IMG/VR virus record: IMGVR_UViG_3300002052_000007
Span: 1 to 44,761 of that record
DNA: 44,761 bases
Strand: one strand, 5' to 3'
Source of the DNA: a virus
Position numbers and translations under genes: made by a program. Positions 8,578 to 43,286 of the stretch are shown here, in pieces (the first letter of the stretch is position 1; each line of letters starts with the position of its first letter). Below the pieces are notes generated by a model. That model searched no databases. It worked only from the letters and a program-made list of their open reading frames with translations, and was not told where the DNA came from.

Positions 8578-10533
8578 ATGGCTGAAAAACCCATCCTGAT
8601 CAAACCGCAGCAGCAATCCCCCGATCAGAGGGAAGCCGTTGAAGAGTCTGAATACTATTGGGAAAAGCATCCCGTAGTCACGAATTATTTCCCCTACTGG
8701 AAGGAGTACATCGCCTGGTTCTACGGAAATCAGTACACATGGGCAAACATGGATTCAGGGATACTTGAGGACATATCTAAGAAGGTTGACCGGGAATACA
8801 AGAACGTCTATAACCGAATCCTGCCAATGATCCGGCAGCTTTGGGGGGAGATTTTATACCTTCATACGTTTTATGTCGAGCCCAATACTTCTCAATCAAA
8901 AGATGTCAAAGCTGGCAAGTTGGGGTCCAGGGCCATTGAATACACGAATCTGAACGGGAAATTCCTGTTCAAGCTCAATCACCACGCAAAACTTTGGGCA
9001 TTGGTCACAGGAAACGTCTATTGGAAAGAGTTTTGGAACAAGCATCTCGAGGGAAAGATAGACGATGGAAAAGGAGGAGTGACAACGCAGCCGGGAGATG
9101 TCGATTTCAATTATGTCAATCCTTTCCTGGTAAGGGCAGACCCTTACGCAATCGAAAGGAAAAATCAGAGATGGGTCATAGAGGGACAGGAGCTTCCAAA
9201 AACATCGGTTGAGAGGATGTTCAACCTGAGTCCGGACAGCCTTCCTGCAGACAGGCTGAAGGTTGAAGACGTTGATCTTCTTGCCATGGGTCACAAAAAG
9301 CCGGAAAAAGAGGAAACGGTCATCCTTATGAGGAGATATTGGAGACCCATGGATAAATGGGAAAAGGGCAGATACATGGTAACAGCAGCAGGCTGCATCC
9401 TCTATGACAATGCAAGCCCTGTTCCTAATGCTGACCTTCCGATTATCCAAATCCCAGGGATCCTTCCAATCCTGAATCAGCAGTATTACGACAGCCCTGT
9501 AAGGATAGCGCAGCAGTCGCAGCGTCAGCTTAATAGATTCGGTTCAATCATAGATAGCCATATTGAAAACTACAGGCTGAAGGGCATGATCCCAAGGGGA
9601 TCACTCGACCCGGAAGAATTTGAAAGATATGTCCGGGCGGATGTTGAATATGTCATATACAATCCCACAGGAGGGGGAAATCCCTACTGGCAGCAGCCTC
9701 CTGCACTTCCAGAGATAATCATGCGCTGGCTGATGTTCATGGAGAATGAGATTGAAACAGAAACCTCAGTAAGAAAGGTTAGTTATGGACAGCTACCAAA
9801 ATACGCTCAGAGGGCATCAGGTGTGCTATTCGAGCGAATGAAGGGGCAGGACGTAAGCGTTCTTGTGCCGACTGTGGATGCCATAGATGACGCCATGAAG
9901 GACGCCATGACAATAAGGCTGAAGCTGATGCAGAAGCATTACAAGGAACCTGGAAGGCTTATAAGGACAACAGGGAGAAGCAGACAGACGGTAGAGATAT
10001 TCCTGAAGGACACAGATCTTGAGAACAACACAGATGTCCGGGTCCAGAGTGGAGTGGACTTCTTTTCTCAAAGGCAGGAGAGGAAAGAGGCGATTGTTTC
10101 TCTGGCAAAAGAAGGCTACATAGCAATGGACGAGGCTTTGGAGGCAATGGAATACAAAGGACTTGAGGAATTGACAGAAGAGAAATTCATCGACCGCAGA
10201 TACGCATACAGGATCATTGACCTCATAAGAGAAGGAAAGCCTGCGCCCGAAGTAAGCGAAGACGACAACCATCAGGTTCACTACGACATTTACAACACGG
10301 AAAGGAAAAAAGAAGAGTTCGAGCTTTGGGGAGAGGATGCAAAGGCAAAACTGATGACTCGCATCGCCGAGCATAAAAAATATATACCAACGATAGGGGA
10401 AGAGCCAATAGAAGAGGGGGAGGTTCCCCCTGAAGAGACAACCGCAGCAGCTCCCGCTGAGATCGCACCTACAGCAGAGGAGCTAATAGCTGCTATGGCC
10501 CTTGGACCCGAAACCGAAGCAGGAGGATATTAA
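8578..10533 (+). CDS. Portal protein
   Basis: 651 aa, follows terminase and precedes scaffold and capsid, the canonical portal position. Features that fit podovirus-type portals are an early aromatic-rich clip/wing region (YWKEYIAWFYGNQYTW), a long central alpha/beta region, and a helical C-terminal part (ERMKGQDVSVLVPTVDAIDD, then VDFFSQRQERKEAIVSLAKEG). The C-terminus is acidic and Ala/Glu-rich. Twelve copies would form the DNA channel at one capsid vertex. I infer the P22-like size class from length only. Confidence 0.85.
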   Translation: MAEKPILIKPQQQSPDQREAVEESEYYWEKHPVVTNYFPYWKEYIAWFYGNQYTWANMDSGILEDISKKVDREYKNVYNRILPMIRQLWGEILYLHTFYVEPNTSQSKDVKAGKLGSRAIEYTNLNGKFLFKLNHHAKLWALVTGNVYWKEFWNKHLEGKIDDGKGGVTTQPGDVDFNYVNPFLVRADPYAIERKNQRWVIEGQELPKTSVERMFNLSPDSLPADRLKVEDVDLLAMGHKKPEKEETVILMRRYWRPMDKWEKGRYMVTAAGCILYDNASPVPNADLPIIQIPGILPILNQQYYDSPVRIAQQSQRQLNRFGSIIDSHIENYRLKGMIPRGSLDPEEFERYVRADVEYVIYNPTGGGNPYWQQPPALPEIIMRWLMFMENEIETETSVRKVSYGQLPKYAQRASGVLFERMKGQDVSVLVPTVDAIDDAMKDAMTIRLKLMQKHYKEPGRLIRTTGRSRQTVEIFLKDTDLENNTDVRVQSGVDFFSQRQERKEAIVSLAKEGYIAMDEALEAMEYKGLEELTEEKFIDRRYAYRIIDLIREGKPAPEVSEDDNHQVHYDIYNTERKKEEFELWGEDAKAKLMTRIAEHKKYIPTIGEEPIEEGEVPPEETTAAAPAEIAPTAEELIAAMALGPETEAGGY

Positions 10534-10796
10534 TGGGTGAAATCCAAGAATTTGTTAACATCAAGGAAATCGCAGACCTTTTAAACTACAGCGTTGACGA
10601 GATCGAGGAGCTAATGGAAAGGAAGCTCATTCCTTACCATACGGACCTGGAAATTCTGACGCCTACGGGTGTTAGATTTTACAAGCTAGCCTTCCCGAAA
10701 CAGGTCGTTCTTTCTCAGATCAAACCAAGAGAAAAGAAGAAGGTCGCAAAAACAGCAAAGAAAACGGAACCTAAAAAAGAAGAGGAACCGTTTTAA
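10533..10796 (+). CDS. MerR/excisionase-type winged-helix small protein in capsid operon
   Basis: 87 aa. Residues 7-55 (NIKEIADLLNYSVDEIEELM, then RKLIPYHTD) match the helix-turn-helix-17/excisionase pattern, followed by a Lys/Glu-rich tail ending EEEPF. Its ATG overlaps the portal stop. A DNA-binding protein between portal and scaffold is unexpected; it might act on packaged DNA or regulate late genes. Its EEEPF end resembles the SSB-tip motif of the replication proteins in this genome. Confidence 0.6.
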   Translation: MGEIQEFVNIKEIADLLNYSVDEIEELMERKLIPYHTDLEILTPTGVRFYKLAFPKQVVLSQIKPREKKKVAKTAKKTEPKKEEEPF

Positions 10797-39562: not shown

Positions 39563-39723
39563 CGCTTATTTCCTAAGATAGAATCGGGAGTATCTTCATC
39601 CATATTCCAATCCTCTTCTTTAACCAACTCACAGACATGGTTGCACTCACGACAGCGAGTCACCACTTCCCTCCCATATCGCCAGAAGAACCACTTGGCA
39701 CCGCAACAGTCAGAGACTCTCAT
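39544..39723 (-). CDS. Small zinc-ribbon protein, 59 aa
   Basis: Begins MRVSDCCGAKWFFWRYGREV and has CCGA plus CRECNHVC, a four- or five-Cys zinc ribbon. The ATG overlaps the TGA of the loader-like gene (ATGA) and its end overlaps the MazG-like gene, so it sits tightly in the operon. Small zinc ribbons with a CCGA start are frequent in phage replication modules. Function unknown. Confidence 0.7.
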   Translation of the reverse strand: MRVSDCCGAKWFFWRYGREVVTRCRECNHVCELVKEEDWNMDEDTPDSILGNKRCEKNK

Positions 39724-40229
39724 TTCTTACTCTCCAAAAGTTTGCCCTTGTCTTCTGTCAGCCTTTTCTTATCCTGCTCTTCAGCCATCATCATCTTGTA
39801 AACACCTATGAAGTGATGCCTGTCAAAAGTATTGTTAGGGTCTGTTTCTCCGAAGTCTCTCCAACTTCCAAAGGCAATCTCTATCGCCCTGTTCAGGGTT
39901 TCATTTTCAGAAGGGTAGGAAGAATTAAAGGCCAACCTACAGGCTTCGTTCCAGAGCTCCAAGCCCTCAAGATCATGCTTGTTCTCGTCAATTCCAAGAT
40001 ATGCAAGGAAGTCCGCGGGAAGAGGAAAGGCATGGATCCTTTTTGTGAAAGCTATCTTTTCTGCAGCGTCTTCAATGTCCTCTATGCAGAAAGGCTCGAG
40101 AATCTTTTCATAGAATCTAACTTTCCTAGAAGAGATCGGCTTCTCCGGACAGAAAGTTTCCTGCAGCATCGCCATTACTACAGCAAAGCGTTCAGAACGG
40201 GTCGGAGTTTTCTTCTCTTCTCTTTTCAT
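39720..40229 (-). CDS. Phage replication/helicase-loader-like protein
   Basis: 169 aa from the ATG at 40229 (SD AGGA). Helical, with FYEKILEPFCIEDIEDAAEK and HAFPLPADFLAYLG as landmarks; this resembles the DUF6475-type proteins found beside phage replisome organisers. In that position such proteins are thought to help load host DnaB. Overlaps the organiser gene by 38 nt. The role is inferred from neighbours. Confidence 0.6.
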   Translation of the reverse strand: MKREEKKTPTRSERFAVVMAMLQETFCPEKPISSRKVRFYEKILEPFCIEDIEDAAEKIAFTKRIHAFPLPADFLAYLGIDENKHDLEGLELWNEACRLAFNSSYPSENETLNRAIEIAFGSWRDFGETDPNNTFDRHHFIGVYKMMMAEEQDKKRLTEDKGKLLESKK

Positions 40230-40785
40230 CAAGCCATCCTTTGATGCCATTAAAATTATCTTTCTTTGCCTTCAACCATAGCTGATCAAACTTCTCCCTC
40301 AGCTTCGCCATGCTGAGAATGTTTGACTTCCAAAAGGAATCAAACTGAGAGAAGTCGATCATAGCCTTAATCTCTTCTGCGGTCCGACCATCCCTCTCCC
40401 TCATCAAGCGACAGGAATTGATCCAATCGCCCCTCCGCTTCAACGTCAGGTTCTTTACGATGGAGCTATTAGGATTGTTCTCGATCATTAGCTTCACAAG
40501 GTATTCTGTCAGCTCGACATCAATACTATTTTCTTCATGTTTGTTTGCAGGAATAGGTTCAATGACCTTTGTGTCATCATTGTCGATCGGCTCTTCTCTT
40601 TTTGATTCAACAATCTTTATGGACTTAAGTACCTCGGCCCTCTCAGATTCGATCTCTAGGATTTTCTCTTTAGCCTTTTCTATCTTATTCTTCTCGTTTG
40701 TGATCTCGTTATTTAGCTTCGTCAGGTGGGTGTGGAGGGTGTTGTAAACCGTATCCATCTCACCGAAAAGATTTTGTTCATCCAT
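40192..40785 (-). CDS. Replisome organiser-like replication protein with SSB-like C-terminal tip
   Basis: 197 aa. N-terminal coiled coil (10-60), acidic linker, then a C-terminal helical domain. The FWKSNILSMAKLREKFDQLW segment is a hallmark of the C-terminal part of phage replication initiators and organisers. The protein ends NSDPF, the same tip as the SSB encoded next to it (DDPF). No N-terminal winged helix is visible, so origin binding is unproven. SD AAGGAG. Confidence 0.65.
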   Translation of the reverse strand: MDEQNLFGEMDTVYNTLHTHLTKLNNEITNEKNKIEKAKEKILEIESERAEVLKSIKIVESKREEPIDNDDTKVIEPIPANKHEENSIDVELTEYLVKLMIENNPNSSIVKNLTLKRRGDWINSCRLMRERDGRTAEEIKAMIDFSQFDSFWKSNILSMAKLREKFDQLWLKAKKDNFNGIKGWLDEKRREENSDPF

Positions 40786-40796
40786 GATTTATCTCC

Positions 40797-41195
40797 TTAA
40801 AAGGGATCGTCTTCAAGTTTAGTGATCTCCTCTTTTTCAGGCTTTAGAGGAGAATCCTTTGTCATAAAAGTTATATGTTCTGCTTCTATTTCTACCCTTT
40901 CTTTTCTTTCTCCATCTTTGTGCCAAATTTTTCTTCTCAATTTTCCCTCAATGCTAACTCTCATGTTTTTTTTTAGGAATTTTCTGGCTATTTTAGAATT
41001 ATTTCCCCAGGCAACTATATTGTGATATTCAATATAAGGCTTAGACTTTCCCCTGGCATAAAATAACTCAAGAGTAGCAAGCTGAAAGCCTGCCCACATT
41101 CTTCCTCCATCTTTCATTTCTCCCGTCTTTATCTCAGAAGATACAAAACCTATAAGCATGACTTTATTAAGGGAGTTGTAATCGGTCTTTCCCAT
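40797..41195 (-). CDS. ssb: Single-stranded DNA-binding protein
   Basis: 132 aa. OB fold (NKVMLIGFVSSEIKTGEMKD, IEYHNIVAWGNNSKIARKFL, MRVSIEGKLRRK) and an acidic C-terminal tip LEDDPF typical of bacterial SSBs, which recruits host repair and replication enzymes. The linker is very short. It lies between the exonuclease and the organiser genes, in the recombination module. SD is poor, so translation is probably coupled to the upstream gene. Confidence 0.9.
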   Translation of the reverse strand: MGKTDYNSLNKVMLIGFVSSEIKTGEMKDGGRMWAGFQLATLELFYARGKSKPYIEYHNIVAWGNNSKIARKFLKKNMRVSIEGKLRRKIWHKDGERKERVEIEAEHITFMTKDSPLKPEKEEITKLEDDPF

Positions 41196-41197
41196 TC

Positions 41198-42109
41198 TTA
41201 GAACGGATCAGGATATGGCAAGTCCTTTGGTATTTTGACAAGCTGCTTTTTCGCCTCCTTTTTTTTCTCTTTTTTCTTTTGTTTGATCTCAGCGGAAATC
41301 TCTTTCGCATCCTCGAGAGTATGCCATAGAAGACAGAGGTGTCCGAACTGAGCGAGGTGTTTCCTGGTAAGATGTTTAGGATACTCTGCAAACTCATACA
41401 TGCCTGTTTCTTTGTCGAGCCTTAGAATCCCAGTCCCATCTGTGTATGTACCAGGGTTTCTTTCCTCATAGGCGTGATCATAACCGGCTACCTGAATCTT
41501 CATGTCGTCATAGATGCCACTTGAAGATTTGACGTCTATAGTTAGAAGCCTCTTGTTGTAAAGGCCAGTAACGTCAAGCCTGCCACCGTATCCCCGGAAT
41601 GACTTGCTCCATACTGTGACCTCTGTCATGACCGGGCGAAAATCATTGTTCTTTATCCAATCAATCAAACCGTTTACAGGAGCATATATGTCAGGATCGA
41701 CTTCTCCGACTTCGATGTCGCTGTTCTTTATCATCTGGCTGAATATCATCTTGGCTATGTCGTGTACTCTGGATCCTTTATCTCTCTCCAACTTTGAAAT
41801 CTTTTCATGTTCAGCCTTTGCTTCCCTGTAAAAAGCTCCGAGGTCCATGGAGGTTATGTCTTCAAAAGTCAGCTCACCATCTTTTATTCTCTGGATTTGA
41901 TTGACTGCATAAGCCGCTGTGATCTTTGCAGACCAATACATAAGGGGACGGGATTTGTCTAGGAGTCCTGTTACTGTGCTGACCCGGGGGACTCTGCGAC
42001 CATTTAGATCAGGTATTTCGTATTTGTTCCCGTTCTCAACGACTGAAATATTATGGCTCTTCGAATTGTTCTTCTGATTCGTCTTCTGGCCATTCTGTTT
42101 CAGGGGCAT
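41198..42109 (-). CDS. RecB-like PD-(D/E)xK exonuclease with SSB-like C-terminal tip
   Basis: 303 aa. Nuclease landmarks: VHD (H116), TEVTVW (E163), GRLDVTGL (D179), TIDVKSSSG (D192, K194) and QVAGYDHAY (Q206, Y210), the order expected of RecB/Cas4-family exonucleases. The upstream gene is RecT-like, so this is an exonuclease-annealase pair analogous to RecET. The C-terminal 40 residues are Lys-rich, then end PYPDPF. It overlaps the RecT-like gene by 59 nt and has a strong SD (AAAGGAGG). Confidence 0.8.
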   Translation of the reverse strand: MPLKQNGQKTNQKNNSKSHNISVVENGNKYEIPDLNGRRVPRVSTVTGLLDKSRPLMYWSAKITAAYAVNQIQRIKDGELTFEDITSMDLGAFYREAKAEHEKISKLERDKGSRVHDIAKMIFSQMIKNSDIEVGEVDPDIYAPVNGLIDWIKNNDFRPVMTEVTVWSKSFRGYGGRLDVTGLYNKRLLTIDVKSSSGIYDDMKIQVAGYDHAYEERNPGTYTDGTGILRLDKETGMYEFAEYPKHLTRKHLAQFGHLCLLWHTLEDAKEISAEIKQKKKEKKKEAKKQLVKIPKDLPYPDPF

Positions 42110-43286
42110 ATTCTTCCTCCTTTTTCCTTTCTTTTTGTTCTTTTTCCCATGTTGCCCATGCAGAGAGGACCCATTCCCATTTATCCAACAACATCTTGAG
42201 GTGTTCTGCCTTGCCTAAAGAAAGGCTGAGGTGATTGTATTCGTTGAACTCAACCCATTGATATTCTTTGCCCTCTTTCTGTTTCTCGATCTGGAAGTGA
42301 TATAGAAAGTCTTTTAGGCTTTTGTATTGTTCGCGGAAATTCTTTTCATTTGTGGAGCGCAGCTTTATATCTTCCTTTATCTGGCTGACACAGTAATCAA
42401 CCATCTCTTCTTCTGTCATTTGAGAAGGATCGCCCTCTTCAGGTAAAGGTTTTTCTTCGGGCTTCTCAGACTCCGGCTTTTCCTTTTCAGCTTCAGGTTT
42501 GGGTTCGGTGATAGGACTTTCCTCTTTAGCCTTGGCTTTCTTCTTAGGAGGACGACCGCGTTTCCGCTTTGGCTTTTCCTCTTTAGGTTCAACCTTGGCA
42601 GGTTCTTCTTTTGGCTTTGCTTTTTCCTCTTCCTCTTTCTTTTTTTCCTCTTCCTCTTTCTTTTTTTTCTTCTCAGCTTGGGCATTGTCAAACTTCTTGG
42701 CTTCCCTGAAAGCTCCGGCATCATGTATCTCTTCCTCGATATAAAGACCAAGAGCTGCCGCAGGATCGTATGCTCTCTGACCTTTTGCAACACAACGCCA
42801 AAACAACATCTCTTCTGGATAGTTTAGCCAGTTATCCTTTTGTGAAAGAGACATGCCTTTGCTGTCTTTGATCCTTCTTGCGTCCTCAATGGTGAACGCC
42901 TCTATCCAAGGATCCTTCCCTGGCTTTTCAAACTTTATTTTACAAACCTCTTTTGTCTTCTCAACTATTGAGACGTTGACACCTCTTTGTTCAAGAAGAG
43001 CCAGGAGTACCTTCGCTTCAATGCAGAGCCTTCCTCTTACAACGCTCATGGTTTGAAGCGCGATTACTGGCTTTATACCAAGCTCTCTTCCGTACTCGAT
43101 TACAGCAAGAGCTTGATACTTATCTGAGATTTGAGGAAACATCTTTGACTGAGCCAGACCGGAAGCGATATACATCAGGTTCCGGGCATCGGGTAAATCA
43201 TCTTCCCGGACAGCAGGTGATTTCTCCTGTGGTTGCTCTTCCCTTTTGACGATCTCAGCATTTACGACTTTTTCTTCTTCTGACAT
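42051..43286 (-). CDS. RecT-like ssDNA-annealing protein
   Basis: 411 aa. Residues about 25-195 have features common in phage RecT-like proteins: ALQTMSVVRGRLCIEAKVLL, DNWLNYPEEMLFWRCVAKG, then QRAYDPAAALGLYIEEEI. A long Lys/Glu/Pro-rich disordered insert with an AT-hook-like PKRKRGRPPKKKAK lies at about 205-300, followed by a helical C-terminal domain ending EEQFEEP. It anneals complementary strands after the exonuclease. The AT-hook-like insert is unusual for RecT. Confidence 0.75.
   Translation of the reverse strand: MSEEEKVVNAEIVKREEQPQEKSPAVREDDLPDARNLMYIASGLAQSKMFPQISDKYQALAVIEYGRELGIKPVIALQTMSVVRGRLCIEAKVLLALLEQRGVNVSIVEKTKEVCKIKFEKPGKDPWIEAFTIEDARRIKDSKGMSLSQKDNWLNYPEEMLFWRCVAKGQRAYDPAAALGLYIEEEIHDAGAFREAKKFDNAQAEKKKKKEEEEKKKEEEEKAKPKEEPAKVEPKEEKPKRKRGRPPKKKAKAKEESPITEPKPEAEKEKPESEKPEEKPLPEEGDPSQMTEEEMVDYCVSQIKEDIKLRSTNEKNFREQYKSLKDFLYHFQIEKQKEGKEYQWVEFNEYNHLSLSLGKAEHLKMLLDKWEWVLSAWATWEKEQKERKKEEEYAPETEWPEDESEEQFEEP

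Follow-up and report, generated by a model that had tools for sequence, protein, structure and literature searches.

The C-terminal tip of Escherichia coli single-stranded DNA-binding protein (SSB), the SSB-Ct, reads DDDIPF. Pockets that receive SSB-Ct tips bury the terminal Phe, hold its carboxylate on a basic lip and seat the Asp residues on a basic ridge (PMC10164576). Phages provide two further points of reference, both centred on annealing proteins: in phage HK620, stimulation of Sak4 annealing acts through NDYPPF, the last six residues of the phage SSB (PMC5928155), while Redbeta residues 178-261 contact lambda exonuclease and, potentially, the SSB of the host (PMC9512822).

Here, we describe a phage locus in which Asp-Pro-Phe (DPF) forms the C-terminus of three consecutive minus-strand products: an exonuclease, an SSB and a replisome organiser. 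The window—by which we mean the whole stretch of DNA analysed, an IMG/VR virus record of 44,761 bases—begins and ends with the same 94 bases, a terminal repeat which makes it very probable that this phage genome is complete. The same operon is present in a near-identical IMG/VR contig.

Three adjacent products ending in Asp-Pro-Phe

Reading along the minus strand from 43286 to 39720, the operon encodes a RecT-like protein, the exonuclease, the SSB, a DnaD-like organiser and a small loader-like protein (Table 1). It thus holds a RecT plus exonuclease module, with the RecT-like annealing protein adjoining a RecE/RecB-type exonuclease, as judged from PHROG assignments and a fold match. The genes for these two proteins overlap by 59 bases (window 42051-42109).

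Table 1. Coordinates, assignments and C-terminal ends of the features discussed (window positions).
Feature	Coordinates	Strand	ORF	Match or basis	C-terminal end or codons
RecT-like single-strand annealing protein	42051..43286	-		phrog_4171, 1.1e-18	EEQFEEP
RecE/MGME1-fold exonuclease	41198..42109	-	303 aa	phrog_298, 2.6e-24	KIPKDLPYPDPF
Exonuclease DPF codons	41201..41209	-			GAT CCG TTC, then TAA; protein end ...LPYPDPF
SSB	40797..41195	-	132 aa	PF00436, 2.6e-16	tip LEDDPF (...KLEDDPF)
SSB DPF codons	40800..40808	-			GAT CCC TTT, then TAA
DnaD-like replisome organiser	40192..40785	-	197 aa	phrog_2514, 4e-24	tip NSDPF (...EENSDPF)
Organiser DPF codons	40195..40203	-			GAC CCG TTC, then TGA; overlapping downstream gene reads another frame
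Helicase-loader-like protein, probable	39720..40229	-		position and weak resemblance
Small accessory protein	10533..10796	+	87 aa	between two head-region genes	KKEEEPF

An initial annotation of the window had reported DPF ends on these three proteins, and ORFs and codons agree with it exactly; its protein names also hold against the SSB, organiser and exonuclease families in Table 1, and ‘RecB-like’ is right for the exonuclease in the broad nuclease sense, given a fold that matches MGME1 and RecE. It had further stated that the tips use different codons, which is true of the Pro and Phe codons of the SSB, but the exonuclease and organiser both use CCG TTC. Recent DNA duplication of the tails, which it had discounted, can be rejected, since the sequences before the tips are unrelated in all three proteins. 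Each protein carries the terminal Phe, with its free carboxylate, and the penultimate Pro that characterise an SSB-Ct docking tip, preceded by acidic residues that amount to EDD in the SSB, EENSD in the organiser and a single D within the last six residues of the exonuclease.

The AlphaFold2 model of the exonuclease (mean pLDDT 86) found its best Foldseek match among solved structures in human MGME1 (1.7e-8), with RecE also matched (8.6e-5). Its last helix spans residues 245-289, after which block-averaged pLDDT is 70 (residues 291-300) and then 54 (residues 301-303); in this model the tip sits on a low-confidence, probably flexible end beyond the folded core. Two bases separate the exonuclease stop from the start of the SSB gene and the tip codons contain no obvious ribosome-binding site, so the sequence of this end is not imposed by the gene that follows.

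Alignment shows that the organiser has a coiled coil and a C-terminal domain but lacks the N-terminal domain seen in its longer relatives. Its tip codons overlap the start of the loader-like gene, which we placed at ATG 40229, with AAAGGA upstream; if that start is right, the two genes share 38 bases (window 40192-40229). The loader-like protein had no Pfam match, and showed weak, non-significant similarity (E 0.08) to the product of the post-organiser gene in a Desulfobacteraceae genome.

A fourth protein, encoded elsewhere in the window, does end in EEEPF as the initial annotation claimed, but its tail is Lys-rich and it has no counterpart in the only related phage found, a fragment recovered by a terminase search (L289/G580, 47% identity), where homologues of the genes flanking it adjoin each other. 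On both counts this gene adds little.

A possible docking motif and its receptor

The DPF ends are real and probably form a functional docking motif, for which any receptor named here is a candidate only. Our leading interpretation, held tentatively and at a little under an even chance, is that they are a selected, SSB-tip-like docking motif whose receptor is most likely phage-encoded or phage-tuned. What we infer under it—binding, the identity of the receptor and any effect on replication—would run as follows. The exonuclease and organiser would display the tip of the phage’s own SSB on flexible C-termini, and all three proteins would fit the same type of pocket, predicted to enclose the final Phe, with its carboxylate resting on a basic lip and the Asp set against a basic ridge. 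By analogy, the best candidate receptor for the exonuclease may be the C-terminal region of the adjacent RecT-like protein, which would take freshly resected single-stranded DNA (ssDNA) from the nuclease and then use the same pocket to be placed back on ssDNA coated with SSB, holding exonuclease and SSB in turn. For the organiser, the receptor would be the partner that the SSB tip engages at the origin or fork, perhaps a loader or primosome protein.

The RecT-like protein itself has no DPF tip; it carries a Lys/Glu-rich linker followed by a C-terminal region, for which no sequence relative was detected among the fetched loci. Residues 285-411 were modelled as three helices, at a confidence (pLDDT 53) too low for comparing the fold with the three-helix Redbeta C-terminal domain. 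Counting against a docking motif are the scarcity of acidic residues in the tips, most marked in the exonuclease, and the overlap of the organiser tip codons with another gene.

The initial annotation had instead proposed mimicry of the host SSB tip, with docking on generic host partners such as PriA, RecO, RecQ or DnaG, which we consider rather unlikely. SSB-Ct pockets do read a terminal Phe, a penultimate Pro and acidic residues (PMC10164576), and no replicative helicase or primase was recognised among eight early-region genes scanned against libraries, so the phage probably does use host replication proteins. However, the residue at position -3 departs from the canonical tip. Among 43 other SSB tips this position is occupied by L (32), I (4), P (2), V (2), N (1), M (1) or A (1) and never by Asp, and five bacterial SSBs from other genomes that end in Pro-Phe have Ile or Val there, whereas the exonuclease, SSB and organiser of this phage all have Asp and all lack the usual hydrophobic residue. 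The exonuclease and organiser tips also lack the canonical Asp cluster, and when 3,830 non-SSB proteins are scored with an SSB-tip profile built from 27 distinct SSB ends they come 53rd and 46th, respectively. Docking on host SSB partners is weakened accordingly. The two tips resemble the SSB of their own phage more than the canonical SSB tip, and the Asp common to all three suggests that a phage-matched receptor is to be favoured over generic host pockets.

Rarity of the ends and their absence from relatives

Coincidence, or a short-lived convergence without function that left two three-residue ends among about 60 genes, also appears unlikely. We gauged how rare such ends are in loci fetched mostly by homology to the organiser or exonuclease. 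Among the unique non-SSB genes outside the window, which were cut by a crude longest-ORF caller and include some that are not real, a [DE]PF end occurred once in 3,769, while a loose tip—a final Pro-aromatic pair with an acidic residue in the six positions before it—occurred in 28 (0.74%). Under the strict definition (a rate of 2 in 3,770), the probability that both immediate neighbours of one SSB carry such an end is ~3e-7, and that at least two of its six nearest neighbours do so is ~4e-6, rising to 1.6e-4 on multiplication by the 37 tipped SSBs surveyed. The corresponding values for the loose tip are 5.5e-5 and 8e-4 for one SSB, the latter not negligible over 37 SSBs. Within three genes on either side of those 37 SSBs, 2 of 212 neighbours carried a loose tip, both of them in this window, and we therefore rejected any general rule that SSB neighbours carry tips. 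The DPF pattern is thus rare and unlikely to have arisen by chance, yet each match spans just three residues and the estimate depends on how strictly a tip is defined.

The relatives, however, count in favour of coincidence. Within viral contigs, close homologues of the exonuclease, organiser and RecT-like protein were absent, and the only matches were near-identical copies of this phage. A Pro-Phe end was seen in none of about 55 exonuclease relatives (about 45 distinct sequences in one set and about ten in another), all of them remote at about 20-30% identity. The presence of an organiser relative in a Desulfobacteraceae genome led us to scan 395 genomes of one phylum, which yielded a single remote exonuclease relative, without the tip; no exonuclease relative was found in the related phage fragment recovered by the terminase search. 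Organiser relatives, at best about 50% identical over part of the protein, included 113 unique sequences, of which 101 lacked even a loose tip; the other 12 comprised that of this phage, a Bacillaceae mobile-element group (EDELPF, EAEMPF) and a group from lactobacilli (YDLPY). We rejected the DLPY ends of Companilactobacillus organisers as SSB tips, in view of their terminal Tyr and PLYD context. At this remote range, the check on tip conservation went against the proposal in the initial annotation, with the exonuclease relatives and most organisers lacking a tip while the SSB keeps its own. Moderately close relatives are available in just one family, the Bacillaceae elements, where the end varies between ELPF, EMPF, ELPY and ADLL. 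Against coincidence stand the strict estimates given above and the inclusion in the match of an Asp at -3, unusual for SSB tips. What survives of the ‘selected tip mimicry’ that had been proposed is that chance is an unlikely source of the pattern, that the exonuclease tip lies on a probably flexible end and that SSB-type tips are found again on other phage replication and recombination proteins; tipless relatives weigh on the other side, and its host-partner component is the part that has lost ground.

It is improbable that the OB fold of the phage’s own SSB receives the tips and so draws the nuclease and organiser into SSB assemblies as clients. Such an arrangement would require no further receptor, and the C-terminal peptide of E. 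coli SSB does bind its OB domain, driving dynamic condensation; however, ssDNA strongly blocks this interaction in E. coli (PMC11947617), so that recruitment to SSB-coated ssDNA through the OB fold would be weak. Some other role for the ends, such as shielding the proteins from C-terminal proteolysis or satisfying a coding constraint imposed by overlapping genes, is highly improbable: the organiser end does share bases with the gene that follows, but no start codon or obvious ribosome-binding site falls within the exonuclease end, and the same residues are reached from three different upstream sequences.

Should the DPF ends instead be a selected docking motif with a phage-matched receptor, SSB-type tips on non-SSB proteins would offer a simple rule for the assembly of phage replication and recombination machines, and the tip would be a sequence signature that predicts partners.

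SSB-type tips on other proteins and comparison with known systems

Other phage DNA-processing proteins also carry SSB-type tips, and this recurrence is the point most worth following. The top 18 of the 3,830 non-SSB proteins on the SSB-tip profile came from other elements and were for the most part organisers, annealing proteins, Gp3-like factors and SSB-like DUF669/phrog_378 proteins. A limited search found no published description of SSB-type tips on non-SSB phage proteins, although one may exist. It is conceivable, if doubtful, that the SSB tip serves phages as a portable plug, by which nucleases, organisers, annealing proteins and others share one docking pocket, and that in this phage plug and pocket have co-drifted to a private DPF version.

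Several families illustrate the range of these ends. Three Gp3-like factors (L167:5243-5944, L170:5475-6182 and L226:5255-6028) end in SSB-type tips (DEPPF, EAPPF), two of the three matching PF18897 (recombination directionality factor-like); the related factors in L004, L179 and L180 lack such tips. Members found of the phrog_3290 single-strand annealing family (L278:356-1006, L272:13-411 and L294-L297) all end in EEEPPF or DEEEPF and are 88-100% identical to one another. A protein of 344 aa (L050:872-1906), whose operon also encodes a RecB-like nuclease and an organiser, ends in LDDGVPF; it had no PHROG or Pfam match and looks by eye like an annealing protein.

The DnaD-like organisers of Bacillaceae mobile elements (L110, L115, L122 and L252) likewise bear SSB-type tips (EAEMPF, EDELPF), but they differ from the organiser described here in lying beside a DnaC/IstB-like loader, with no nearby SSB gene in the fetched loci, and in having a long conserved tail with a variable end. 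A related organiser (L101/L233) ends in EADLL, and that of L252, which has a different core, in EEELPY, so the end is not strictly conserved. The L252 tail travels with a DnaC/IstB-like loader that is 59-62% identical to that of L115. One organiser tail and loader are joined to two different organiser cores (L115:7533-9286, L252:793-2591), a hint that the tail and the loader act as a unit. Directly upstream of the tipped organiser in L122 lies a gene for a 62-aa coiled-coil-like protein (L122:1178-1366) that ends in IEDLPF.

Compared with the SSB-Ct of E. coli, the ends described here share the terminal Phe, the penultimate Pro, one or more upstream acidic residues and a position at the extreme C-terminus, but this phage also carries the tip on a nuclease and an organiser, with Asp at -3 and fewer acidic residues. 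Lambda Red likewise sets an annealing protein beside an exonuclease, one domain of the former contacting the exonuclease and potentially SSB (PMC9512822); its exonuclease is not known to carry a shared tip. In the present phage, by contrast, the exonuclease fold is closest to MGME1 and RecE, and the RecT-like protein has a C-terminal region without a detectable sequence relative. HK620 offers a phage annealing protein stimulated through the end of an SSB (PMC5928155); there the tip is on the SSB, whereas in this phage it is found on the neighbouring proteins as well.
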